From positions 1-45,733 of the forward strand of contig JAEVEX010000031.1 of assembly GCA_016842085.1 (NCBI GenBank): 45,733 nucleotides of DNA, written 5' to 3'. The translations under genes and the position numbers were made by a program. Below are positions 933-22,194 of the stretch, piece by piece; the stretch's first letter is position 1; every line of letters starts with the position of its first letter. The notes under the pieces are model-generated. The model was not told the DNA's origin, ran no database searches, and worked only from the letters and a program-made list of their open reading frames with translations. Origin of the DNA: Candidatus Thermoflexus tengchongensis. Lineage in GTDB: Bacteria > Chloroflexota > Anaerolineae > Thermoflexales > Thermoflexaceae.

Positions 933-3273
933 ATGCCTCGTTTCTGGTTCTGGCTGGATCGATGGTTGCCCAGGCGATTGACCACGCGCCTGATCCTGGC
1001 GCTGGTTGTGATCGTGGTGGCGGCCGGCCTGATTACGGCCGGGGCCGTCCACCTGCTGCTGGCCCGCGCCCTGCGCGCGGAGCTCATCCGCTCCGGGCGA
1101 TCTCTAACCCTGGCCATGGGGGAGAACCTGGCCAACGCCCTGGCCGAGGGAGATCTGGCGACGGTCCAGGAGCTTCTCAACGCGATCGTTCAGGAGAACG
1201 GCGATGTGGTCTATGCCTTCGCCGTCGCCCCCCACATGCCGCTGGTTCACACGTTCCCAAATGGGTTCCCCAGGGATCTGCTCCGGCTGATCCCGGCTCC
1301 TGGGGACCTGCCCGGGGATGGGGTGCTGTTACAGACGGAGTTGGGACGGGTGCGGGATTTCGCCTATCGGCCGCTGGATGGGATTCCTGCGGAAGTGCAT
1401 GTAGGGATCAGCCAGGCGCGCATAGAGGCGCTGCAGGGGCAGGTGACCCGGTTCATCATCGGCCTCACGCTGATTGGCTGTCTGATCGCTGCGGGGATTG
1501 CATATGGGTTCGGGCAGGTGGTGATTCACCCGCTGGTTGAGCTGACCCGCCGGGCCCAACGCCTGGGTCAGGGTTATCTCGATGAACGGGTCCATCTGCC
1601 TCCGGGAGGGGAGATCGGAGATCTCGCGCAGGCGTTCAATCAGATGGCTGACGAGATCCAGCGGGCGATCCGTCAATTGCGGGAATCGGAGGCCGGCTAT
1701 CGGGATCTGTTGAAGGCGGCCAGCACCGTAGGCGAAGGGATCGCCCTGATCGGGGAGGAAGGAGAGGAAGAAGGAAAACTGGTGTTTGTGAACGAGGCCT
1801 TCGCCCACCTGCTGGGGTTTGAACCGGAGGATCTGATCGGGTTGAATGTAGCCAGTATCCTTCCGCCGGATGCCCTGGAGGATGCCCATCGATTATGGGA
1901 GGGGATCCGCAAGGGTCGAGCGGAGCATCCGGCGGAACTTCGGGTGATCGATCGGGATGGGCGGCCGCATGTCCTGGAAACGACAGGGGTCCGCATTGGT
2001 TATCAGGGGCGATGGATGCTGGCCTGGTTTGTCCGGGACATCACCGAACGCAAGGCTCGGGAGGAGGAACTTCGGCGCCGCAACCGGGAGCTCATGGCGC
2101 TAAACGCGGTTGCTTCGGCCGTGAGCGAGCTGATGCCTTCGTCGCGCCTGCTGGAACGGGCGTTGCGTCAGGCCCTGAACGCCCTGGACCTCCAGGTCGG
2201 CTGGATCTTCATCATGGAAGACGGGGGATTGCCCCGGCTGGCTGCCTGGCACGGCCTGATTCCGGGGGAAGACCAGGAGGTCGAGAAGCTGTTCAGCTTC
2301 CCCGAGTGCCGGTGCGGGCAGGTGCTCATCGATGGGAAGCCAGTGATTGTGGGCTCCATGGAATCCCGATGCGCCGTGCGGCGCATACGCTCTGCGCTGG
2401 AGCTCCCCCTGACCTGCCATGCGGCAGTGCCTATCCCGGTTCAGGGACGCATCCAGGGCGTTCTGGCCGTGGCGGCGGAGAACCCCCGGATCTTTGATCA
2501 GGCGGAGATGACGCTGCTGATGACCATCGGCCAGCAAATTGGGATGGCACTGGAGAACGCCCGCCTTTGGGAAGAACTGCGTCGGAAGGAGCAGATCCGC
2601 GGAGAGTTGCTGGCTCGCCTGTTGCGGGCCCAGGAGGAAGAGCGTCTCCGGATCGCCCGGGAGCTCCACGACGGAATAGGCCAATCCATGAGCGCGCTGG
2701 TCTTCGGCCTGAACGCCATCAGCGTGGCCCTCGCCCAGGCCCCGGAGGAGGTTCCCCGTCTTCTGGAGCGTCTGAAGGTTTCCACAAGCGATGCCATCAA
2801 GGAGCTCCAGGATATCATTTACGACCTTCGTCCAACCTTGCTGGACGATCTGGGACTGGTGCAGGCCCTGAAATGGTATGTGCAGGATCGTCTGGAATCA
2901 CGGGGGACGGGTGGTTTTCGAGATCCCGGATGTCCTTCCGCGGTTTTCCCCCGAGATCGAGACTGCGCTGTTTCGCATCGGGCAGGAGGCGATCACGAAC
3001 ATCTGCAAACACGCGGAGGCGACGGAGGTGAGGATCCGCCTGTGGGTTGAGGGAGGATGGGCAGGAATGGAGATCGCAGATAACGGGGTGGGTTTCCGAT
3101 GGTCAGATATGCAGGCGGAGGGAGGACTCCGCCGTGGATGGGGATTGCTGGGGATGCAGGAGCGAGCGGCTCTGCTGGGTGGAAGGCTCACGATTGAGAG
3201 CGCACCCGGCCAGGGAACCCGCTTGTGCGTCCATCTGCCATGGAGGGTGGAAGAATGGGAATCCGGATCCTGA
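933..3273 (+). CDS. NarL-type sensor histidine kinase with a frameshift near 2902-2906
   Basis: Membrane sensor kinase. From ATG 933 the order is TM1 (about residues 18-44), extracytoplasmic loop, TM2 (about 174-193), HAMP (195-247), PAS (252-373), GAF (390-545), HisKA_3 with phospho-acceptor His579 in [10 protein letters not shown], then the ATP-binding domain. The frame used up to about 2900 hits a stop at 3050. The ATPase domain ([28 protein letters not shown]) is in the next frame, ending at 3273. Removing one G from the GGGGG run at 2902-2906 gives an uninterrupted 779-residue kinase, so this is either a sequencing error or a recent lesion. The GAF domain has four Cys (about 459, 461, 480, 495) that could bind metal or sense redox. 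An upstream ATG at 669 lies inside the PhnD-like gene and is rejected. The gene overlaps the regulator by 19 bp. Confidence 0.85.
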
Positions 3274-3893
3274 TTGCCGATGATCATGCCATTGTGCGGG
3301 CAGGCATCCGGGCTTTGCTTCAGCTTCATCCCGACTTTGAGGTGGTGGGGGAGGCAGGGGATGGTCATGAAGCGATCCTTCAGGTGCGCCGCCTGCAGCC
3401 GGATGTGGTTCTGATGGATCTGGCCATGCCGGGCATGGATGGCCTGGCGGCTACCCATGAGATCTGCCGGATATCCCCTCAAACACGGGTTCTCGTTCTC
3501 AGCCAGCATGAAAACCGGGAATATGTGTTGCCTGCTCTCCGGGCGGGCGCAGCGGGATATGTGCTCAAACGGGCGCCTGACGATACGCTGATCCGGGCGA
3601 TCCGGGCTGTCTACGCCGGCGAGACGTACGTGGATCCCCGACTGGCAGAGCTGCTGGTGGAGGAGGTCCGGCGCTCCATCGAGGGATCGGTGGACCCCCT
3701 GGATACTCTGACGGAACGGGAACGGGAAATCCTGATCCTGCTGGCTCAGGGGAAGAGCTATCAGGAGATCGCCCAGACGCTGTTTATTAGCGTGAAGACG
3801 GTCGATTTCCATCGAACCAATCTGATGCGCAAGCTGGGCCTGAAGAACCGGACGGAGCTGGTTCAGTTCGCAATGCGGCGAGGGTTAATTTAA
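3255..3893 (+). CDS. NarL/FixJ-family response regulator
   Basis: 212-residue two-domain regulator. The receiver has the acidic pair in IADDH, phospho-acceptor Asp55 in [13 protein letters not shown], the Thr/Ser-equivalent in VLVLSQHE and Lys in GYVLKRA. The C-terminal LuxR-type helix-turn-helix has [21 protein letters not shown] and [19 protein letters not shown]. It should be phosphorylated by the adjacent HisKA_3 kinase and bind DNA as a dimer. ATG 3255 is chosen because GGAGGGTGG lies just upstream at 3242-3250 and the receiver begins at once. The targets are unknown. It is the last gene of the PhnD-kinase-regulator unit. Confidence 0.92.
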
Positions 3894-4012
3894 TCCTGTG
3901 AGAGGGGCCATCCGGCCTGCCCGGACATTCAAGCGGAACAGTGCAAGTCTCCTCTTGAAGAGGTCCCGGTGAGCACTGAAGGTGCCCCTGGTCCCCGAAG
4001 ATCTTGATTCCT

Positions 4013-4043
4013 CCCTTCCGGCTCAGGAGGCCACCGGGAAGGG
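4013..4043. terminator. Hairpin between convergent genes
   Basis: CCCTTCCGG (4013-4021) pairs with CCGGGAAGGG (4034-4043) with one bulged G. It lies between the regulator (ending 3893) and mltG (ending 4070), which converge. There is no clear T-run on either strand, so termination is only suggested by position. A smaller palindrome, CCTCTTGAAGAGG, lies at about 3952-3964. Confidence 0.3.
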
Positions 4044-4069
4044 GAATCCTCCCCCAGAACGGTTATGTT

Positions 4070-5221
4070 CTATGGGCAGCGCTGGAAATTCCTCAGGTGC
4101 TCCTCCTGGGTGCGAGCGAACCAGTGGCTGCCGTCCTTTTTGATGCAGTCGGCCATGAAGTAGAAATATTCGGTCTCCGCCGGGTTCAGCACCGCTTCGA
4201 TGGAGGCCAGGCCGGGGTTGGCGATGGGCCCCGGCGGCAGCCCGGGATAGCGATAGGTGTTATAAGGGGAATCCACCTGCAGGTCCTCCAGGGTGAGGGG
4301 GCTCTTCCACCATGTCCTCTGATCCGGCTGATAGCCCAGCGCATACTGGACCGTTGGGTCCGCATCCAGTTTCATCCCGGCCGTTAGACGGTTCAGGTAG
4401 ACGCTGGCGATCAAGGGGCGCTCCTCTGGAAGCACCGCCTCCCGTTCCACGATCGAAGCGAGGGTGATCACCTGATGCAGGGAAAGCCCCCGTGCCCGGG
4501 CGGCGGCGATCTTCTCCGGCGTGACCTTCCGGCCGAAGTTCTCCAGCATGCGCCGGATCATCGCCTCCGCCGTCGCATCTCGGGCCAGCCGGTAGGTGTC
4601 CGGGAACAGATACCCCTCCAGCGTCGCGCCGGGAGGTAGATCCGCCAGGAAGGGGAACTCCGCCCGCCAGCGGAGACCATCGCGGGCGGCTTCCAGGATG
4701 GCCTGGGCGGAAAGATGCGTCTGGGCGGCGATGGCTTCCGCGACCTCCTCCAGGCGCAGACCCTCCCGGATGCGCACCGTCCATTCCGCCTTGCGGCCCG
4801 AGCGAAGGGCTTCGGCGATCTGGGGGATGGTCATGGTTTTGTTCAGCGTGTATTCCCCCGCCTCGATCTCCCGGTCCAGCCCGTAGTAACGCACGTAGGC
4901 CCGGAACAGAAGGGCATCGCGGATCAGGCCGGCCTCCTGAAGCGCCTCCGCGACCTCCATCACGGACTGGCCGGGGTGAATCACAAAGGTCACCGGGGTG
5001 GGATCGGTGCCCGCTGGCTGCTGCAGATCGCCCTGTCGGAGAAGCAGATACAGCCCCAGTCCCCAATCCACGGGGGATCCCCGGAGGACCGGGCCGGAGG
5101 GCAAAGCGTTTCGGTTCAGACGGGGGAGGAGCGCTGCGCCGGTGGCTCCGCAGAAGAAGATGACGGTGCCGATGGCCACCAGCCAGCGCCATGTGGAGCG
5201 GCGAGGACGTTTCCGGGACAT
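4070..5221 (-). CDS. mltG: Endolytic murein transglycosylase MltG (YceG-like)
   Basis: 383 residues. A short basic cytoplasmic tail is followed by one membrane helix (about 12-32), a LysM-like region (VTFVIHPGQSVMEVAEAL, about 77-95) and the YceG catalytic domain. The motif ASIVEREA contains the predicted catalytic Glu259, followed by RPLIASVYLNRL. The enzyme cuts nascent peptidoglycan strands at the membrane and so terminates glycan elongation. It is the last gene of a minus-strand cluster ruvB-ruvX-mltG, 105 bp after ruvX. MltG next to the RuvX family is a common bacterial arrangement. The length is normal. Confidence 0.93.
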   Translation of the reverse strand: MSRKRPRRSTWRWLVAIGTVIFFCGATGAALLPRLNRNALPSGPVLRGSPVDWGLGLYLLLRQGDLQQPAGTDPTPVTFVIHPGQSVMEVAEALQEAGLIRDALLFRAYVRYYGLDREIEAGEYTLNKTMTIPQIAEALRSGRKAEWTVRIREGLRLEEVAEAIAAQTHLSAQAILEAARDGLRWRAEFPFLADLPPGATLEGYLFPDTYRLARDATAEAMIRRMLENFGRKVTPEKIAAARARGLSLHQVITLASIVEREAVLPEERPLIASVYLNRLTAGMKLDADPTVQYALGYQPDQRTWWKSPLTLEDLQVDSPYNTYRYPGLPPGPIANPGLASIEAVLNPAETEYFYFMADCIKKDGSHWFARTQEEHLRNFQRCP

Positions 5222-5326
5222 GGATTTATCCCCTGAACAGGAATTACGCAGTCGACTTCCTCCCGGGAGCTTCCGGAGCCAGGCTGGCCTGCCCCCGGGA
5301 GATGGGTCTTTTCTCCCTCCTGGGAC

Positions 5327-5737
5327 TCAGCGGATCCGTTGCGCCTCCAGGTAATCCTGAAGGATCACGGCCGCCGCCTCCGCATCGATGGGTTCGCGGC
5401 GACGTTGCCCGCGCATGGCGCGGTAAGCTTCCGCCGTGACCGTGGAGAGACGTTCATCCCACAGGACGATGGGGACCGGGAGGCTTCGCGCCAGGGCCTC
5501 GGCTTCCCGGCGGACCCAGCGGGCCTGGGGGCCCTCCTCGCCGGAAAGGCTGCGCGGGAAACCCACCACGATCCGCTCGACCTCGTATTCCGCGATCAGG
5601 CGGCGGAGCGCTTCGATCACAGCTTTCCGGGACGTTCGGGTCAGGATCCTCAGCGGGCGGGCGATCGTCCGGGTCGGATCGCTGATGGCCACGCCGATGC
5701 GCTTCTCCCCCAGATCCAGCGCCATCACCCGGCCCAT
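5327..5737 (-). CDS. ruvX: RuvX/YqgF-family Holliday junction resolvase-like nuclease
   Basis: 136 residues with the RNase H-like fold signature. The N-terminal strand MALDLGEKRIGVAISDP carries the first catalytic Asp, RIVVGFPRSLSGEEG follows, and the acidic WDERLSTVTAE is at the C-terminal active site. Members are implicated in pre-16S rRNA maturation and perhaps in Holliday junction processing. Its start codon overlaps the ruvB stop (TGATG arrangement at 5735-5739), indicating translational coupling. Confidence 0.93.
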   Translation of the reverse strand: MGRVMALDLGEKRIGVAISDPTRTIARPLRILTRTSRKAVIEALRRLIAEYEVERIVVGFPRSLSGEEGPQARWVRREAEALARSLPVPIVLWDERLSTVTAEAYRAMRGQRRREPIDAEAAAVILQDYLEAQRIR

Positions 5738-6834
5738 CAGATGGACTCCAGGGGAAGTGGGGGTTGGGCGGCCTCGCCGGGGTAGGGCAGGCCCAGGTGC
5801 TCATAGGCGCGGCGGGTGAGCACCCGACCGCGCGGCGTGCGGTCGAGGAAGCCCAGCTGCAGCAGATACGGTTCCACCACATCCATAATCGTGTCCGGCT
5901 CCTCGGAGAGGGCCGCGGCCAGCGTCTCCAGCCCCACGGGCCCGCCGCCGAATTTCTCGGCGAGGGTGCGGATCAGCCGCCGGTCCAGCTCATCCAGCCC
6001 CAGGGGATCCACGTCCATCAGCTGGAGCGCCTCGGCGGCCACGGCAGCGGTGATCACCCCATCCGCTCGAACCTGGGCATAGTCCCGAACGCGGCGGAGC
6101 AGGCGAACGGCCACGCGGGGCGTGCCCCGGGCCCGACGGGCGATCTCCCGTACGCCTTCCTCCTCAATCTCCACCCCGAGCACCCGGGCGGCGCGGCGGA
6201 CGATGGTTGCCATCGCCTCCAGATCGTAGAAATCCAGGCGGAAAATAGCGCCGAAGCGGGCACGGAGGGGAGCCGTGAGAAGGGCCAGGCGGGTGGTGGC
6301 GCCGATCACCGTGAACCGGGGGAGGCTCAGGCGAATGCTGCGGGCGGCCGGCCCTTTCCCGATGACGATATCCAGAGCGAAGTCCTCCATCGCCGGGTAG
6401 AGGACCTCCTCCACGGTGCGGGGGAGGCGGTGGATCTCATCGATGAACAGGATCTCGCCGGCCCGCAGGTTGGTGAGGATGGCCGCCAGGTCCCCCGCCC
6501 GCTCGATGGCAGGGCCGGAGGTGATCCGGATGGGCACCCCCATCTCGTTAGCGATGACGATGGCCAGGGTCGTCTTGCCCAGGCCGGGGGGACCGTAGAA
6601 GAGCAGATGATCCAGGGGCTCACCGCGGGCCCGTGCGGCCTCGATCAGGATCCGCAGGTTCTCCTTCACCCGGTCCTGGCCGATGAATTCCTCCAGCCGC
6701 TGGGGCCGGAGGGCCATCTCAATGGCCTGCTCCTCCGGTCGCCCGTGGGGGGAGATAGGGCGCTCCGACCTCCCGGGCTCGGCGGATGGATTTCCAGATG
6801 CTTGCACTTCCAGCGAATCTTTCCGACGCTTCAA
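5737..6834 (-). CDS. ruvB: Holliday junction branch migration ATPase RuvB
   Basis: 365 residues, slightly long because of a roughly 30-residue polar N-terminal extension before [15 protein letters not shown]. The Walker A is [11 protein letters not shown], Walker B is [11 protein letters not shown], sensor 1 is VIGATTR, and a C-terminal winged-helix domain ends in the conserved [18 protein letters not shown]. RuvB hexamers drive branch migration together with RuvA and RuvC, neither of which is in the window. The start shown is the first ATG; an internal Met at MALRPQ would give a more typical length but lacks a better ribosome site. A TATAAT box lies about 31 bp upstream. Confidence 0.95.
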
Positions 6835-6864
6835 CCAGCCGCTCCCACTTTGGGATCTATATCG

Positions 6865-6870
6865 ATTATA
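6865..6870 (-). promoter_or_regulatory. Candidate -10 box for ruvB-ruvX-mltG
   Basis: On the minus strand the bases read TATAAT (6870 to 6865), about 31 bp upstream of the ruvB ATG. No good -35 box is seen at 16-18 bp, so the call rests on the -10 match and on position between divergent genes. Confidence 0.4.
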
Positions 6871-6997
6871 CTTCCGTCAGGCAGGGGCCCGGGAGGACCG
6901 ATAAAAGCCGATCGTAACCTGATCCCCTGGTTGGGATTTCGTGGGATCCGGCGTGAACCATCCCTCGCGCTGGATACGGTGCGTGGAGGCGATTCGG

Positions 6998-8500
6998 ATG
7001 CCTGTTCGCAGCCCCGGGTTCTGGCGTTCCATCACACCTGCCCACCTGCTGGCCCTCACGGCGCTGGTGGGGATCTTCGTTTTCGTCAGCACCCATCCCA
7101 TCCGCCCCCACGATTTCTGGTGGCACCTTGCCATCGGGCGTGAGATCCTTCAGACAGGCCATATCCCCACGGTGGACACCTTCTCTTATACCCGGAGCGG
7201 CGCGCCGTATCCGTCCTATGCGATGTTCTGGCTGGCCGACGCGCTGATGTATGGACTCTACGCTCTGGGCGGCCCGGCGCTGATCGTATTCGCTCACAGC
7301 CTGCTCATCACGTCCGCCTATGGGTTGATCCTCTGGGCCGCATGGGAGGCCAGCGGGCCGCGGGCTGCGGCGCTGGGGATCGTTGTTGCCGCCGCCCTGG
7401 GGCTCGACGACTGGAATGTGCGGCCCCAGGCCTTCGCCTTCCTGGCTGGCGCGCTGTTTCTGCGCGGGCTCGCCGGGCTGGAACGCTCGCCGCGCTGGCT
7501 CTGGATTTTCCCCCTGGGGATGGCCCTCTGGGTCAACACCCACGGATCTTTCCCCCTCGGGCTGCTGCTGGTCGGGCTGACGCTGGTGGGGAAAGCGCTC
7601 GAGGGCTGGATCGGGGGGGAACGCGGGATACCCGTGCGCCGTTTCCTTTGGGCCTTCGGGCTGACGGTTCTGGCCACGGGGCTGAACCCGCGGGGGTTCG
7701 GTGTGTATGCGTATCTGATCATGATGGCCCGCAACCCGGTGATCCGGACCATGGTCCCGGAATGGGCCCCGCCGGGCCTGGACCGCCATGGGTTGCTGTT
7801 TTATGCAGCGGTAGCGCTGGTGGGGTTGCTGCTGGCAATCCCCCCACGTCGCCTCTCGCTTCATGATCTCCTGATCACCGCGGCGTTCGCCCTGCTGGGG
7901 TTCCAGACCTCCCGGGGGGTGGTGTGGTTCGGGATGGCGGCGGCGCCGATCCTGGCGGCGCGGATACAGGCCCTCTGGCCGGAACGGCCGGGGCGAACCG
8001 GGATCCCCGTCCTGAACGGATTGTTCCTGGGGCTGCTGGGCGGGATGGCCCTCGCGGCGCTTCCCTGGTTCAAAGCGTGGTGGCCGATGCCCGCTGCCAA
8101 GGCCGGGCTGATCTCGAGGGAAACACCGGTCGCGGCGACAGCGTTCCTGCTTCGGGAACGACCGCCGGGGCCACTGTTCCACGCCCTCTCCTTCGGCAGC
8201 TACCTGATCTGGGCGGCCCATCCCGATTATCCGGTGTTCGTGGACACCCGGCTGGAGCTTTATCCGATGGCGATCTGGGAGGATTACCTCGCGATCAGCG
8301 CCGCGGCCCCGGGCTGGGAGGACCGGCTGGCTCGTTACGGAGTGTGTCTGCTGATGGTAAGCCCGATGGAGCAACCGGCTCTCGTGGAAGCGGTCGCGCG
8401 TTCGCCGCGCTGGCAGCAGGTGTATCAGGATGAAGCGGCCTCCATCTGGATCCGGAGAGGGGATGCATGCGGTGGCCCGTCTGGATTCCGGGCTCCTTAA
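6998..8500 (+). CDS. Polytopic membrane protein, GT-C-like, function unknown
   Basis: About 500 residues with 9-11 hydrophobic segments and a soluble C-terminal tail. The N-terminal loop has the conserved pattern HPIRPHDFWWHLAIGRE, then HIPTVDTFSYT. This acidic loop after the first helix recalls GT-C glycosyltransferases of the mannosyltransferase type. The tail (FVDTRLELYPMAIWEDYLA) is also shared by related proteins of Chloroflexota and Actinobacteria. I chose ATG 6998 because GGAGG is at 6985-6989 and the first membrane helix follows soon; an ATG at 6941 lacks a good site. The substrate is unknown. It is transcribed away from ruvB. Confidence 0.75.
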   Translation: MPVRSPGFWRSITPAHLLALTALVGIFVFVSTHPIRPHDFWWHLAIGREILQTGHIPTVDTFSYTRSGAPYPSYAMFWLADALMYGLYALGGPALIVFAHSLLITSAYGLILWAAWEASGPRAAALGIVVAAALGLDDWNVRPQAFAFLAGALFLRGLAGLERSPRWLWIFPLGMALWVNTHGSFPLGLLLVGLTLVGKALEGWIGGERGIPVRRFLWAFGLTVLATGLNPRGFGVYAYLIMMARNPVIRTMVPEWAPPGLDRHGLLFYAAVALVGLLLAIPPRRLSLHDLLITAAFALLGFQTSRGVVWFGMAAAPILAARIQALWPERPGRTGIPVLNGLFLGLLGGMALAALPWFKAWWPMPAAKAGLISRETPVAATAFLLRERPPGPLFHALSFGSYLIWAAHPDYPVFVDTRLELYPMAIWEDYLAISAAAPGWEDRLARYGVCLLMVSPMEQPALVEAVARSPRWQQVYQDEAASIWIRRGDACGGPSGFRAP

Positions 8501-16897: not shown

Positions 16898-17543
16898 GCT
16901 GCACGCCCATACGGTTTGCTCTCCAGATAGCCTGGTTTCCCTGGAGGATTTCCTTTCCGCCTGCCGTCGGAAAGGCCTGGACCGCGTGGCGGTGACCGAT
17001 CACAACACCATCGAGGGGGCGTTGCGGCTGAAGGAACGGGCCCCGGATCTGATCATCGTGGGCGAGGAGATCCGCACCCGGGAGGGGGAAGTGCTCGCTT
17101 ACTTCATTGAGCGGGAGATCCCAAGGGGTCTTCCCCTGATGGAAACCATCCATCGGATCCGGGAGCAGGGCGGCGTGGTGGCGCTTCCTCATCCCTGCGA
17201 CCGGGCGCGAGGCTCCGCAGTGGGTCGGGAGATCGCCGAGGCTGTGCTCCCCATAGTGGACGCGGTAGAGATCTTCAACGCGCGCTGTGTGTTTCCGGGC
17301 GACAATGTCTGCGCCGCGGCGCTGGCCGCGCGGTTCGGCAAGCCGGGCTTCTCCGGCAGCGATGCTCACACGCTCTGGGAGCTGGGCCGGGCGTGGACGG
17401 CCCTTCCGCCCTTTGAGGACGCGGCGAGTTTCCTGCAAGCCCTGCGTCAGGCCCGCCCCACCCGCCGTCTGAGCCCCTTCTGGGTGCACCTGCTTTCCAC
17501 GTGGGCGAAGTGGCGCCGTGCCCGCAGGAGGGTTCGAGATTAG
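16884..17543 (+). CDS. PHP-domain phosphoesterase
   Basis: 219 residues with the PHP metal-site series: [12 protein letters not shown] near the start, [11 protein letters not shown], a Glu in [13 protein letters not shown], and SGSDAHT near the C-terminus. Family members are metal-dependent phosphoesterases such as nucleoside bisphosphate phosphatases; the substrate is unknown. It starts inside the end of cmk (14-bp overlap). Its 3' end lies about 2 bp from the ruined end of the integron integrase, which marks the integron boundary. Confidence 0.88.
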
Positions 17544-17544
17544 A

Positions 17545-18465
17545 TTCGCCTCCTTCCTGTGCCCCAGCAACTCCTGGGCCGTGCGAATGCCGTGTATCCG
17601 GCTTCCAGCAAGAGGGTGGCGAAAGAGTGGCGGAAGGTGTGGGGGATCACCCTCCTGGAGATGCCGGCCAGTTGGGCGGCGCGGCGTATGGCTTTCTGGA
17701 GGCTACCTGGATCCACAATGGTGGCGCCGCACGACGCCGGAACGCGGATCCACGGAGAGGCGCGCCGGCGGGAAGACCCACTGCCAGATCCACTCCCGTT
17801 CTGCGCTGGGAGACTTGTGGGCCAGGGCGTCCGGCAGGTAGACGGCGCCGTACCCGCGGGCGAAGTCCTGTTGGTGGATGCGTTTCACCTGCTGCAAGTG
17901 CAGCGGCAGGGGTTCGACAAGGGCGTGGGGCGGCACCGTGATACGGCCCTTCTGCCCTTTCCCATCGCGGACGATGATCTGGTGCCGGGCAAAATCCAGG
18001 TCTTTCACGTGCAGGCGCAGGCCGCTGCCGTAGAGGAACGGGGCCATCAGCAGGTGCACGCCGGAGAGGCGAGCCAGCACGCGCTGCACCTCCTCGCGGG
18101 TGAGAACGGTGGGGAGGCGTTTGGGCTTCTTCGCGCGCACGGCGTCGATGGAAAAATCCAGCTCTTGTCCGAGAACCTCATGGTACAGGAACAACAACGC
18201 GCCGAGGGCCTGGTTCTGGGTGCGGGCGGTGACGTTTTCTTCTACGGCGAGGTAGGTGAGGAAGGCTTCGATCTCCGGAGCGCCCATGTCTTTCGGATGG
18301 CGCCTGTTGTGGAAAAGGATGTAGCGTTTGATCCAATCGATGTAGGCCTGTTCGGTGCGGTAAGAGTAGGGCTTGCGGCGCAGCGCCTCGCGCACGCGCT
18401 CGAGGAGCCTGGGCGGGTGTTGCGGACGGGCGGAGTGTTATGATGACGAATTTGACATTTGACAT
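17545..18465 (-). pseudogene. intI: Integron-type tyrosine recombinase (IntI), degraded
   Basis: The N-terminal part matches IntI closely: [39 protein letters not shown] and [19 protein letters not shown]. The integron-specific insert is also present ([21 protein letters not shown]), as is box [18 protein letters not shown]. Lesions: the ATG at 18465 is out of frame with the body (a TAA lies in frame near 18439); about six residues are missing after YGSGLRL; a one-base insertion lies near 17715-17719; a two-base insertion lies near 17595; and the gene ends after LLGHRK, losing the catalytic Tyr. It lies divergent to the cassette array, exactly as intI should. It cannot make an active enzyme as read. 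Confidence 0.9.
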
Positions 18466-18485
18466 GAGAAAGCTTTCCTTATAAG
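18459..18485 (+). promoter_or_regulatory. Candidate Pc promoter of the cassette array
   Basis: TTGACA (18459-18464) and TATAAG (18480-18485) are separated by 15 bp; another TTGACA is at 18452-18457. They point into the cassettes and overlap the first codons of intI on the other strand. The spacing is shorter than the usual 17 bp, so strength is uncertain. Confidence 0.5.
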
Positions 18486-18533
18486 CTCCCTGGAAGGCGG
18501 AGATTGCGGATTCCGTCTAATCAACAGTTGGGC
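18466..18533 (+). other. Candidate attI site
   Basis: The segment between intI and the first cassette ends in CAGTTGGGC. GTTGGGC (18527-18533) fits the integron crossover consensus GTTRRRY and marks the left edge of the first cassette. attI sites vary between integrons, so the call depends on position and on the crossover box. Confidence 0.5.
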
Positions 18534-18578
18534 GGCGTAGCCACTTGTGTCGCTCCTCCACAGGAAAGGAGTCGCCTA

Positions 18579-18998
18579 ATGTCCGATACAGTCGCTGAAG
18601 TAACGCAAGTTGTCCACGCATTCGCTGAATGCTGGAATCGGCATGATATGAACGCTTTTGCTGAGCTCTTCGCGCCGGATGCGGAGTTCGTCAACGTCGT
18701 GGGTCTCTGGTGGAAAGGCAGGGATGAAATCAAGAAGGCCCACGAGTTCACACACGCAACGCTGTTCAAGAACAGCCGATTGACCATCACCGACGTTTCC
18801 GTTCGATTTCCTGTCGCGAGTGTTGCCATAGCCAGGTCTCGATGGGTTCTTGAAGGACATGTCTCTCCCGAGGGCGCGCCACTTCCCCCACGCGCCGGAA
18901 TCCTTCTCATAGTGCTCGCTCGCAGTTCGGGAGTATGGTCGATCATCGACGCACAGAATACGGACATCATCGAGGGCGTACTCTCGCGCCCTCAGTAA
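18579..18998 (+). CDS. SnoaL-like (SgcJ/EcaC-type) protein, cassette gene
   Basis: 139 residues of the SnoaL/NTF2-like fold: VTQVVHAFAECWNRHDMNAF, FAPDAEFVNVVGLWWKG, then a beta-sheet region ending IIDAQNTDIIEG. This DUF4440-type family is often carried on integron cassettes; its substrates are mostly unknown. ATG 18579 has AGGAAAGGAG at 18562-18571. The codons are less GC-rich than those of neighbouring chromosomal genes, consistent with acquisition. The gene lies between the attI candidate and the first attC-like site, in the expected orientation, so it could be read from Pc. Confidence 0.85.
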   Translation: MSDTVAEVTQVVHAFAECWNRHDMNAFAELFAPDAEFVNVVGLWWKGRDEIKKAHEFTHATLFKNSRLTITDVSVRFPVASVAIARSRWVLEGHVSPEGAPLPPRAGILLIVLARSSGVWSIIDAQNTDIIEGVLSRPQ

Positions 18999-19028
18999 AG
19001 CATGGGCTGTAGTGAACAGAGCGGTGAC

Positions 19029-19098
19029 GTCCAACGACGGGTTGCCCCCGACGTTGCTCCGCTGCGCTCCGCGACGCGGCTGATCCCGACCATTAGCC
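19029..19098 (+). other. attC-like site 1 (divergent)
   Basis: GTCCAAC (19029-19035, fits RYYYAAC) opens the site and ATTAGCC (19092-19098) closes it, with one mismatch to GTTRRRY. The inner arm CGCGGCTGA matches the other sites, but its partner arm is poorly paired. It starts 30 bp after the SnoaL-like gene stop. Confidence 0.5.
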
Positions 19099-19270
19099 AG
19101 CCTGGTCGGGCCTGGGCGAGGCGCGGTCGCAGGTTGCCGGTTGGCGGGGGTCTTGCCTCGCGCAGCGCGGCGCGATGGCCGGGCGTGGAGCCGTTGGTCG
19201 GCGGTGGTGCGTGGGGTGGGCGACTTGGTAGTCGGCCGGCGTTCTGGGGCCTGAGTTAAACGGCGCTTGT
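19099..19270 (+). other. Cassette 2, no credible gene
   Basis: 172 bp of GC-rich DNA between attC-like sites 1 and 2. The only plus-strand open frame begins in the preceding attC and has low-complexity translation, so I regard the cassette as non-coding. Confidence 0.45.
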
Positions 19271-19397
19271 GCCTAACCCCGCATGCAGCGGACGCGGCTG
19301 GGCCGTGCGCCAGCGAGGGCGGGCTTTCGGGCCATGGCGGTTTCGCCTGCCGTGGCCGCTGGATGGCGATGCCGCGCCGCTGACGCCCTCGTTAGCC
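19271..19397 (+). other. attC site 2 (long)
   Basis: GCCTAAC (19271-19277) and GTTAGCC (19391-19397) bound 127 bp. The inner arms CAGCGG-A-CGCGGC (19285-19297) and GCCGCGCCGCTG (19371-19382) pair perfectly, with the single extrahelical base expected of attC. The long middle is itself self-complementary. Confidence 0.8.
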
Positions 19398-19710
19398 GGC
19401 GGCCGAACGCCGTTGTAATTCCCGGCGGGTGCGAGAAAAAACGAGAGAAAGGCCGTTTGCCGGGTTGCATTCGGTGATGGAAAGCGATGCGAAGGTTCCC
19501 GAAGAGCGGCAACCCGTTCAGGCCTTGCGGAAGGCACAAAGGAGTGGGCCGAAAAGCAGGGCGTGCGAGAAGACGGCCCATGGCACGGCCCACCTTGCGA
19601 GGGACCCCCTGGGCGGTTATGGCATGCGGCGTAGCGGTAGCGGCCCGGGAGGGCGTGGCTTGTGGTGCGGGCGGGTGAACGAGCCGAAGGCGCGGGGTTG
19701 GCCGTGTCGA
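19391..19710 (+). repeat. Duplicated non-coding cassette, copy 1
   Basis: The cassette begins at the attC2 crossover (GTTAGCCGGC). It includes a 178-bp block (19528-19705) found again at 21197-21374 with one mismatch; the upstream parts are alike but diverged. The length between shared words GTGATGG and CGGAAGGC differs by 13 bp between copies, which breaks every long frame, so coding is unlikely despite several open frames on both strands. Copy 1 continues to attC3 at 19857. Confidence 0.8.
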
Positions 19711-19856
19711 GCGAAGCTGTTCGGCTGCCCTGGCCAGGGTCACGGCGAAGCCGTTCGGCTGAGCTCGCGACGAAGCCGAGGGCAGGTGGGCCGGCGGCGA
19801 AGTGACGGTGGGCGGAAGCCGGAAGCGAGCGGCAAGGCTTTGAAGAGCGGGGTGGC

Positions 19857-19919
19857 GGCTAACCCCCGCTGCAGCCGACGCCTCGCTCCGCTCGGCGCGG
19901 CTGAGCTGGGTCGTTAGGA
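19857..19919 (+). other. attC site 3
   Basis: GGCTAAC (19857-19863) and GTTAGGA (19913-19919) bound a 63-bp site. The arms CAGCCG-A-CGCC and GGCGCGGCTG pair with one extrahelical A, and the loop is TCGCTCCGCTC. It closes the duplicated cassette. Confidence 0.8.
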
Positions 19920-20080
19920 AAGCCTGGAGGGCACCCATGCATTGTGTAGGGCTCTGTATTGTTTGTTACTGGTTTGGGGTTCATCGTATTAAGTGGTTAT
20001 CTGCTCATTGATGGAACTTTCTTTGACTTGAGCGGAATCGTGTTAGTATCTGGGGCAGCTTTGTTTGATCTCTTGCTTTG

Positions 20081-20094
20081 TGTAACGGGTTACA
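20081..20094 (+). promoter_or_regulatory. Palindrome upstream of the toxin-antitoxin genes
   Basis: TGTAACGGGTTACA is a perfect inverted repeat 45 bp before the antitoxin ATG. A possible promoter lies upstream (TTGACT 20023-20028, TAGTAT 20044-20049, 15-bp spacing). It may be the autoregulatory operator. The segment 19920-20138 is AT-rich and has no other gene. Confidence 0.45.
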
Positions 20095-20138
20095 GAATGT
20101 CACAACGAAACTTTTGACCCTCAGTCAGGAGGCGAAAT

Positions 20139-20384
20139 ATGGTTTCCGTACCAGGGTTTGATCGGATCACCTTTGACCCCAATGTCATGGGTGGACGCGC
20201 TTGCATTCGAGGTATGCGAATAACCGTCTCTCTGATCCTGAACCTGATCGCTAATGGAATGAGTGTTGAAGAAATCGTTGAAGCCTACCCCTATCTGGAG
20301 CCAGAAGACGTGCGCCAGGCGTTGCGTTATGCTGCCTGGCTGGCTGAAGAGGCCATCTATGCCCTGGAGTCGAGCCCAGCATGA
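20139..20384 (+). CDS. DUF433 antitoxin-like protein (VapB-type)
   Basis: 81 residues of the DUF433 family: RITFDPNVMGGRACIRGMRI followed by the helix-turn-helix-like VSLILNLIANGMSVEEIVEAYPYLEPEDVRQAL. Such proteins pair with DUF5615 PIN-like proteins as toxin-antitoxin systems. ATG 20139 has AGGAGG at 20127-20132. Its stop overlaps the next start by 4 bp (ATGA). It lies between attC sites 3 and 4, so it travels as a cassette with its partner. Confidence 0.9.
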   Translation: MVSVPGFDRITFDPNVMGGRACIRGMRITVSLILNLIANGMSVEEIVEAYPYLEPEDVRQALRYAAWLAEEAIYALESSPA

Positions 20385-20755
20385 GATTTCTGGCGGATAT
20401 GGGAATCTCACCGAGAACGGTGGCTTTTCTTCGGGAACTAGGATATGAGGCGGTGCATCTCCATGAAGAGGGGTTAGACCGCCTGGAAGATGCGGCGATC
20501 CTGGCCAAAGCGCGAGAGGAGGGTTTCATTCTGCTCACCCATGACCTGGACTTTGGGGAGCTCATCGCTGTCAGTGGTGCCCGGCTTCCCAGTGTCATCG
20601 TGTTTCGTCTGCGAAATATGCGTCCTGAGAATGTCAATAGGTATCTCCAGCACATAGTAGAAGAGCATGCGAAGGTTCTGGCGAGCGGTGCAATTATAAG
20701 CGTGACTGAAGGACGTATCCGGATTCGTGCTCTCCCCTTGCGAACAAGGAGGTAA
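20381..20755 (+). CDS. DUF5615 PIN-like toxin
   Basis: 124 residues. The N-terminal RFLADMGISPRTVAFLRELG carries the first acidic residue of the PIN-like site; HEEGLDRLEDAAILAKAREE and FILLTHDLDFGEL provide the others. PIN-like toxins are RNases neutralised by their partner antitoxin; activity here is inferred from family. It is translationally coupled to the DUF433 gene and ends 16 bp before attC site 4. Toxin-antitoxin cassettes commonly stabilise integron arrays. Confidence 0.9.
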   Translation: MRFLADMGISPRTVAFLRELGYEAVHLHEEGLDRLEDAAILAKAREEGFILLTHDLDFGELIAVSGARLPSVIVFRLRNMRPENVNRYLQHIVEEHAKVLASGAIISVTEGRIRIRALPLRTRR

Positions 20756-20771
20756 TCGCCATTGGGCAGAA

Positions 20772-20816
20772 GCCTAACCTCGCTTCGCCCGGCGCGGCTG
20801 AGCTGGATCGTTGGGC
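20772..20816 (+). other. attC site 4, one arm deleted
   Basis: GCCTAAC (20772-20778) and GTTGGGC (20810-20816) are intact, and GGCGCGGCTGAG remains, but the matching CAGCCGACGCC arm is absent. Compared with site 5 the loss lies between two CTCGCT words, suggesting slippage. The site is probably dead. Confidence 0.7.
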
Positions 20817-21025
20817 GGCGCGGCGTCCGACGCTCATCGCCAAGCAGTCCTGGCAAGCACCCGCGGCTATGAGGCGTCGTACATCCGCGTGAGCGTGTTC
20901 TCCTCATCGAGTCCACACGAGGTAGTGGGCCCAGCATGTGGCGCCGTCGCGCAAGCGGTCATCGCCTCAGGGGACGGCCTGAGGCAGGGCTTGTAGTCAG
21001 GCCGTCTGTCCTTCTCCACTTGCCC
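20817..21025 (+). other. Short cassette, uncertain small open frame
   Basis: 209 bp between attC sites 4 and 5. A 61-codon frame starting at 20811 (TTG, inside the attC) ends at 20996. It resembles nothing I recognise and has no ribosome site, so it may be a remnant. Confidence 0.3.
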
Positions 21026-21088
21026 GCCTAACCCCTCGCTGCAGCCGACGCCTCGCTCCGCTCGGCGCGGCTGAGCCACACGTTAGCC
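21026..21088 (+). other. attC site 5
   Basis: GCCTAAC (21026-21032) and GTTAGCC (21082-21088) bound 63 bp with arms CAGCCG-A-CGCC and GGCGCGGCTG, almost identical inside to site 3. It is the best-formed short attC of the array. Confidence 0.82.
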
Positions 21089-21380
21089 GGCAGCCGAAGG
21101 CTGTTGCCATTCCGAGCGAAAGAGGCGAGCAACGCCGTTGGCCGGGTTGCCCTGGGTGATGGAAAGCGATCCAATGATTTCCGGGGGGCCGCCCTTCGGA
21201 AGGCACAAAGGAGTGGGCCGAAAAGCAGGGCGTGCGAGAAGACGGCCCATGGCACGGCCCACCTTGCGAGAGACCCCCTGGGCGGTTATGGCATGCGGCG
21301 TAGCGGTAGCGGCCCGGGAGGGCGTGGCTTGTGGTGCGGGCGGGTGAACGAGCCGAAGGCGCGGGGTTGGCCGTATTGGG
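21082..21380 (+). repeat. Duplicated non-coding cassette, copy 2, truncated
   Basis: It starts at the site 5 crossover like copy 1 and shares the 178-bp block (21197-21374). It diverges from copy 1 right after GGCCGT at 21374, and no closing attC follows. The array therefore ends here, about 50 bp before the end of the minus-strand ABC ATPase gene. Confidence 0.8.
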
Positions 21381-21429
21381 GGAGACTGCCTGCGTTTGCC
21401 CGGATTTCGACTGGAGCACGCATGGGGTT

Positions 21430-22194
21430 TCAGGCCGGCCAGACCAGCCAGCCGGCTTCGGGATGCCGCTCCACCCGCATGGGGATCTCATAGGCGGCTT
21501 CCAGGAGGGCCGGTTGAAGGACCTCCTCCGGGGGGCCGAACGCCAGCGCCCGGCCGTTTTTCAGCAGCAGCAGCCGATCGCAGAAGCGGGCCGCCAGATG
21601 GAGATCGTGAATCGCCAGAACCCCCGCCATGCGATCTGTCCAGAGCATCTGGCGGATCAGCTGGAGCAGCCGAAGCTGGTATTTCAGGTCGAGATGGGCG
21701 AAGGCCTCGTCCAGCAGCAGGATGCGTGGGGTCTGGGCGAAGGCGCGGGCGATGAGCAGGCGCTGGCGTTCCCCCCCTGAAAGCGTCCCCACCGGTCGCT
21801 CTGCGAACGCGTGAGTCTCCGTCCGGATCATCGCCTGCTTGATATGCATACGGTCCGTTGCGGAAAGCGGCGACAGCCAGGCAAGATATGGGGTGCGCCC
21901 GAAGGAGACTACCTCCTCCCCGGTGAACGCCTCGGGAAGCGAAGCTCCTTGAGGAACCACAGCGATCCACCGTGCCCGATGCTCCGGTGGAAGCCGGTGA
22001 AGGGGAACATCCTCCCAGAGGATCGCACCAGCCTGAACGGGGATCACACCGCTCAGGGCGCGGAGCACCGTGGTCTTTCCCGCGCCGTTGGGGCCGATCA
22101 ATCCCAGCGCCTGACCCGGCTCCACCAGGAAACTTAACCCCGGGATGACCACGTGATCCCCATAGGCAACTCGTAAACGCTCGACCCGGAGCAT
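21430..22194 (-). CDS. ABC transporter ATPase, FecE/BtuD-like
   Basis: 254 residues: Walker A GPNGAGKTT, Q-loop VVPQGASLPEAFTGEEV, signature LSGGERQRL, Walker B RILLLDEAFAHLD, and switch His in AIHDLHLAARF. The sequence type is that of iron-siderophore/cobalamin/haem importers. No permease or binding protein lies beside it, so it is an orphan here; partners may have been lost when the integron arrived, or lie elsewhere. ATG 22194 is preceded by GGAGGGGA, better than the upstream ATG at 22215. Confidence 0.88.
   Translation of the reverse strand: MLRVERLRVAYGDHVVIPGLSFLVEPGQALGLIGPNGAGKTTVLRALSGVIPVQAGAILWEDVPLHRLPPEHRARWIAVVPQGASLPEAFTGEEVVSFGRTPYLAWLSPLSATDRMHIKQAMIRTETHAFAERPVGTLSGGERQRLLIARAFAQTPRILLLDEAFAHLDLKYQLRLLQLIRQMLWTDRMAGVLAIHDLHLAARFCDRLLLLKNGRALAFGPPEEVLQPALLEAAYEIPMRVERHPEAGWLVWPA

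Follow-up and report, generated by a model that had tools for sequence, protein, structure and literature searches.

Integrons are known bacterial gene-capturing devices. Genes for their integrase (intI) were reported from Chloroflexi in 2008, and at that time roughly one in three of the intI genes recovered was a pseudogene (PMC2426708); Chloroflexota are also named in later papers (PMC8618304, PMC9668308). Sedentary chromosomal integrons with an inactivated intI have been described, for example in Xanthomonas (PMC8618304, PMC2426708), and clusters of attC sites without intI are termed CALINs (IntegronFinder 2.0, PMC9024848). Our own search with the TIGR02249 profile detected IntI over the cut-off in 43 of 400 Chloroflexota genomes. 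Given these reports and counts, the suggestion made in the first-pass annotation of this DNA, that a cassette array in this phylum would extend the range of integrons beyond Proteobacteria, fails. We found no literature naming Thermoflexus and integrons together.

The locus described here is a 3.9-kb chromosomal integron in a hot-spring member of the Chloroflexota, a species of Thermoflexus. It occupies positions 17544-21430 of the window, the whole 45.7-kb stretch of DNA that was analysed, which comes from a 3.9-Mb assembly in 100 contigs (G000). The integron lies between two convergent genes, a PHP-domain (PHP phosphoesterase) gene ending at 17543 on the left and, on the right, an ABC-transporter ATPase gene whose 3' end is at about 21430. 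An Rfam scan at gathering scores and a tRNA scan of the window gave no match. We read the locus as a sedentary chromosomal integron that has been inherited in a frozen state, with a probability of roughly 0.9. The degenerate integron proposed in the first-pass annotation was upheld, and every part that it had named was found except the promoter.

The integrase gene is a dead intI pseudogene on the minus strand (17544-18465), recognised by its profile match, by frame translations, by alignment with intact Chloroflexota IntIs and by comparison with Candidatus Thermoflexus japonica. Its TIGR02249 match, of 297 bits, lies above the 265-bit cut-off, which none of the control genomes attained in that search, and spans 17556-18407 with one stop inside. 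Six-frame reading located a stop codon at 18438-18440; near the gene start, at about 18450-18463, 7 bp are duplicated in tandem. The alignment revealed that a block of six codons is gone near 18012, downstream of box I; the frame shifts near 17718 and again near 17585, and the end carrying the catalytic tyrosine is absent. Such an integrase is non-functional, so the locus belongs to the integrons as a degenerate, dead member. The N-terminal domain is retained, and the IntI-specific additional domain around patch III is present as a 53-residue aligned stretch. In order to place the protein we built a tree from 82 IntI rows, to which three Xer-like proteins encoded in this genome were added. The pseudogene product fell among the IntIs, mostly near Chloroflexota rows, and the three Xer-like proteins stood outside on a fully supported branch, which settled on the IntI side the question of a possible XerC/D-type grouping. 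Its closest relatives were the IntIs of loci L026 and L027 (66-67% identical; 61-67% over L026-L029).

A candidate attI site adjoins intI on the plus strand (18499-18533), with the R' box GTTGGGC at 18527-18533, and the array reads away from intI. Its sequence, GCGGATTCCGTCTAATCAACAGTTGGGC, is closely similar in form and place to GCGGATGTCCGTATAACCACTAGTTGGGC, which adjoins an intact Chloroflexota intI (L036), and both the box and this likeness fit the proposed attI. The divergent Pc-like promoter that had been proposed beside it was left unconfirmed: a scan of 18300-18700 for the sigma-70 consensus returned no match, host promoters possibly differing from that consensus.

Five attC positions follow on the plus strand, of which three are complete in boxes and pairing arms, one is weak and one is without its left arm. 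We scanned the whole 45.7-kb window for pairs of RYYYAAC and GTTRRRY boxes between which the inner arms pair and leave one base bulged out. Exactly three sites were recovered, all on the plus strand and all at the integron, compared to 0-1 in shuffled windows; they were sites 2, 3 and 5, the same three for which such boxes and arms had been noted earlier. A wider stem search added one minus-strand chance match. Because this box-plus-stem scan was of our own design, we built an independent covariance model (R2), for which all 14 attC sites came from other organisms and none from Thermoflexus. The best plus-strand matches of the window to R2 were attC5 (21026-21088; 47.6 bits, E = 2.7e-10), then attC3 (19857-19919; 42.6 bits, E = 6.1e-9), attC1 (19029-19098; 24 bits, E = 6.6e-4) and the degenerate attC4 (20772-20816; 15.6 bits, E = 0.13). 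R2 missed attC2 (19271-19397), a 127-nt site with full R boxes, 12-bp arms, one extra-helical base and a terminal loop of about 80 nt. Folding of the bottom strands, which had been proposed as a check, gave a divided answer. For attC3 and attC5 the canonical attC hairpin was the minimum-energy structure (z = -3.1 and -3.0, respectively), but the free minimum-energy fold of attC2 contained no attC hairpin (z = -0.05), that of attC1, where ATTAGCC stands in place of GTTRRRY, was non-canonical (z = -1.3) and attC4, which has lost its left inner arm, gave no fold. The attC hairpins have a GC content of about 70% or more; folding at 72 °C with DNA parameters was set aside, as it produced implausible structures and energies. 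Sites 3 and 5 are thus full attC sites, site 2 is one by its boxes and arms only, site 1 is weak and site 4 is broken.

These sites delimit a series of plus-strand cassettes. Cassette 1 (18534-19098) carries a gene for a SnoaL-like/DUF4440 protein at 18579-18998 (Pfam DUF4440, 1.7e-11; SnoaL_2, 1e-10) and ends in the weak attC1. From the sequence and the list of open reading frames (ORFs), cassette 2 (19099-19397), with attC2 at its end, is short and without a convincing ORF, and cassette 5 (20817-21088), with attC5, is ORF-less. Cassette 3 (19398-19919) has no credible ORF either, its longest one lacking constraint in the comparison with T. japonica (dN/dS about 1). Cassette 4 (19920-20816) holds a DUF433 gene (20139-20384) followed by a DUF5615 PIN-like gene (20381-20755), with Pfam values of 9e-27 and 1e-26; on few changes, their dN/dS was 0.32 and 0.13, respectively, and they are probably a toxin-antitoxin pair. 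Stretches related to these genes occur elsewhere in the same genome at L160 (G000:C85:48000-51000) and L161 (G000:C14:15000-18000), with 72% and 88% DNA identity; the box-plus-stem scan detected no attC at either place. Cassette 6 (21089-21430), identified from repeats D1, D3 and D4 and from empty sites, is a shortened copy of cassette 3 without a terminal attC and forms the right end of the element. The two cassettes share a 198-nt ORF-less repeat (19522-19719 and 21191-21388, 95% identical), for which a DNA search of nine Thermoflexus genomes reported no other locus.

The window contig is syntenic with T. japonica (L120; G400) and about 94% identical to it, which places the host in Thermoflexus. 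The cassettes are common to both, in unchanged order and 91-99% identical on T. japonica contig C4, and so is the truncation of intI at the catalytic-tyrosine end. The T. japonica intI has its own 0.7-kb internal deletion and is without the 7-bp duplication and the stop seen in the window. The common truncation together with the differing later lesions indicates that loss of the active-site end came first and separate decay of the copies followed. Seven other Thermoflexus genomes have no integron at the corresponding site. In five of them (G208, G276, G402, G403 and G404) a single contig carries both flanking genes, a short gap apart, and in G401 and G405 the flanks lie on different contigs; the right end of the element was set by comparison with these empty sites. 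This distribution is most simply accounted for by one gain, in the common ancestor of the two carriers; several losses in the relatives may have produced it instead.

A second T. japonica contig, C18, matches C4 exactly over 99-base stretches to either side of the array and has the look of an assembly bubble. This allele lacks intI and cassettes 1, 4 and 5, and its sequence is cassette-3-like until the shared block and cassette-6-like beyond. Such a switch points to a deletion by crossover within the 198-nt repeat, for which no integrase is required. Most Thermoflexus genomes are in many contigs and several are MAG-like, so the reading of C4 and C18 as two alleles could reflect a binning or assembly effect.

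Integron traces were also found elsewhere in the genus, in keeping with the earlier proposal to look there for further intI genes and CALINs. R2 detected four strong and one weak attC without intI at G400:C19 of T. japonica and five attC sites without intI at G405:C513; in both places two or more attC lie near each other, as in a CALIN. The genes at the former (L187, G400:C19:31000-40966, positions 3149-7258) encode an alpha/beta hydrolase, a cupin, an F420-type oxidoreductase, a methyltransferase and a DUF5615 protein. A second integron remnant occupies another chromosomal place in G405 (L189, G405:C310:9000-15496), adjoining a RelA/SpoT-like gene. It contains an IntI C-terminal fragment without the N-terminal part, a subtilase gene and one attC about 3 kb from the fragment. 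The CALINs and this second remnant indicate that integrons were active in Thermoflexus more than once. In the genome of the window, single R2 attC sites occur on contigs C33 and C12 (L190, G000:C33, and L191, G000:C12:42000-47474). Both have the same gene neighbourhood (95.7% identity), each with one attC and the same 148-aa cassette gene near the contig end, which points to a duplicated locus or else to two strains binned together. Lone attC-like matches in G208, G276, G401 and contigs C67 and C48 of G000 may be due to chance.

The anatomy of the locus and the known mechanism lead us to propose the following history. The integron would have sat between the PHP phosphoesterase and ABC-transporter ATPase genes in an ancestor common to T. 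japonica and the host of the window. Its integrase would have joined the folded single-stranded attC sites of circular cassettes to attI and so assembled six or more cassettes into an array; the past capture activity suggested in the first-pass annotation holds as a reading of this kind. The catalytic-tyrosine end, whose truncation is shared, was lost before the two lineages split or exchanged the locus, and each intI copy decayed independently afterwards. With the integrase gone, the cassettes would have become ordinary genes carried with the chromosome, which also agrees, again as a reading, with the idea that the array is fixed because its integrase is dead. The DUF433-DUF5615 pair may help to retain the array as an addiction module. 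Present change would proceed by homologous recombination: in the T. japonica assembly, a crossover between cassettes 3 and 6 removed 4 and 5, and the second allele is missing intI and cassette 1 as well.

Two other explanations deny part of this scheme. The degenerate state of some sites and the presence of repeats could fit a phage or Xer-type recombinase pseudogene lying beside unrelated GC-rich repeats, an explanation to which we give almost no credence since it is refuted by the IntI profile match, the IntI-specific insert, the tree and the independent attC model. Nor is it at all probable that an IntI encoded elsewhere in the genome still mobilises the array in trans. Sites 3 and 5 do look intact, but the TIGR02249 search detected no intact intI in the nine Thermoflexus genomes and no further match over the cut-off in this genome or the eight others, and the order of the array is equal in the two species.

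The sedentary, frozen integron that we favour leaves room for descent that was not purely vertical. Synonymous change between the two species amounts to 4-6% within the array and in that half of the ABC gene which adjoins it, and to 14-20% just outside. It affects 10 of 253 sites in the cassette genes compared to 53 of 366 in the neighbouring CMK and PHP genes (Fisher p = 1e-5), and 6 of 102 in the array-side part of the ABC gene compared to 22 of 108 in its far half. The non-coding array DNA is mostly 91-99% identical, against 71-87% for nearby intergenic DNA. Exchange of the integron block between Thermoflexus lineages after their separation, by homologous recombination through the flanks, would explain this low divergence, and we consider such exchange slightly better than an even bet. 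These figures come from one genome pair, however, identity falls to 83-85% in attC2 and at the beginning of cassette 3, and selection on the non-coding array DNA could account for the conservation. More tentatively, and with the odds rather against it, homologous recombination by itself may have maintained the dead locus, spread it among lineages and reshaped it, so that it would behave as a gene island driven by recombination in a thermophile.

Taken as a sedentary integron, the locus is real and ordinary in kind, a well-documented new case of a known system. It offers a case of an integron after its death whose events can be ordered, with a common truncation in two species, separate later decay and seven relatives without the element, and it makes visible an integrase-free route of cassette loss. 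The range over which integrons are known stays as it was, with integrons and cassette arrays now on record from across a thermophilic genus. CALINs are matched by the integrase-less arrays at G400:C19 and G405:C513, whereas the window locus retains an intI remnant. The other Chloroflexota integrons (PMC2426708, PMC8618304, PMC9668308; loci L026-L055) supply its closest IntI relatives and have an attI-like site in the equivalent place, but their IntIs are intact while that of the window is a pseudogene. Like the sedentary integrons of Xanthomonas, it combines a dead integrase with a stabilised array and vertically kept cassettes; it differs from them in belonging to another phylum and to a thermophilic genus, in its very short array and in the loss of the catalytic end in two species.
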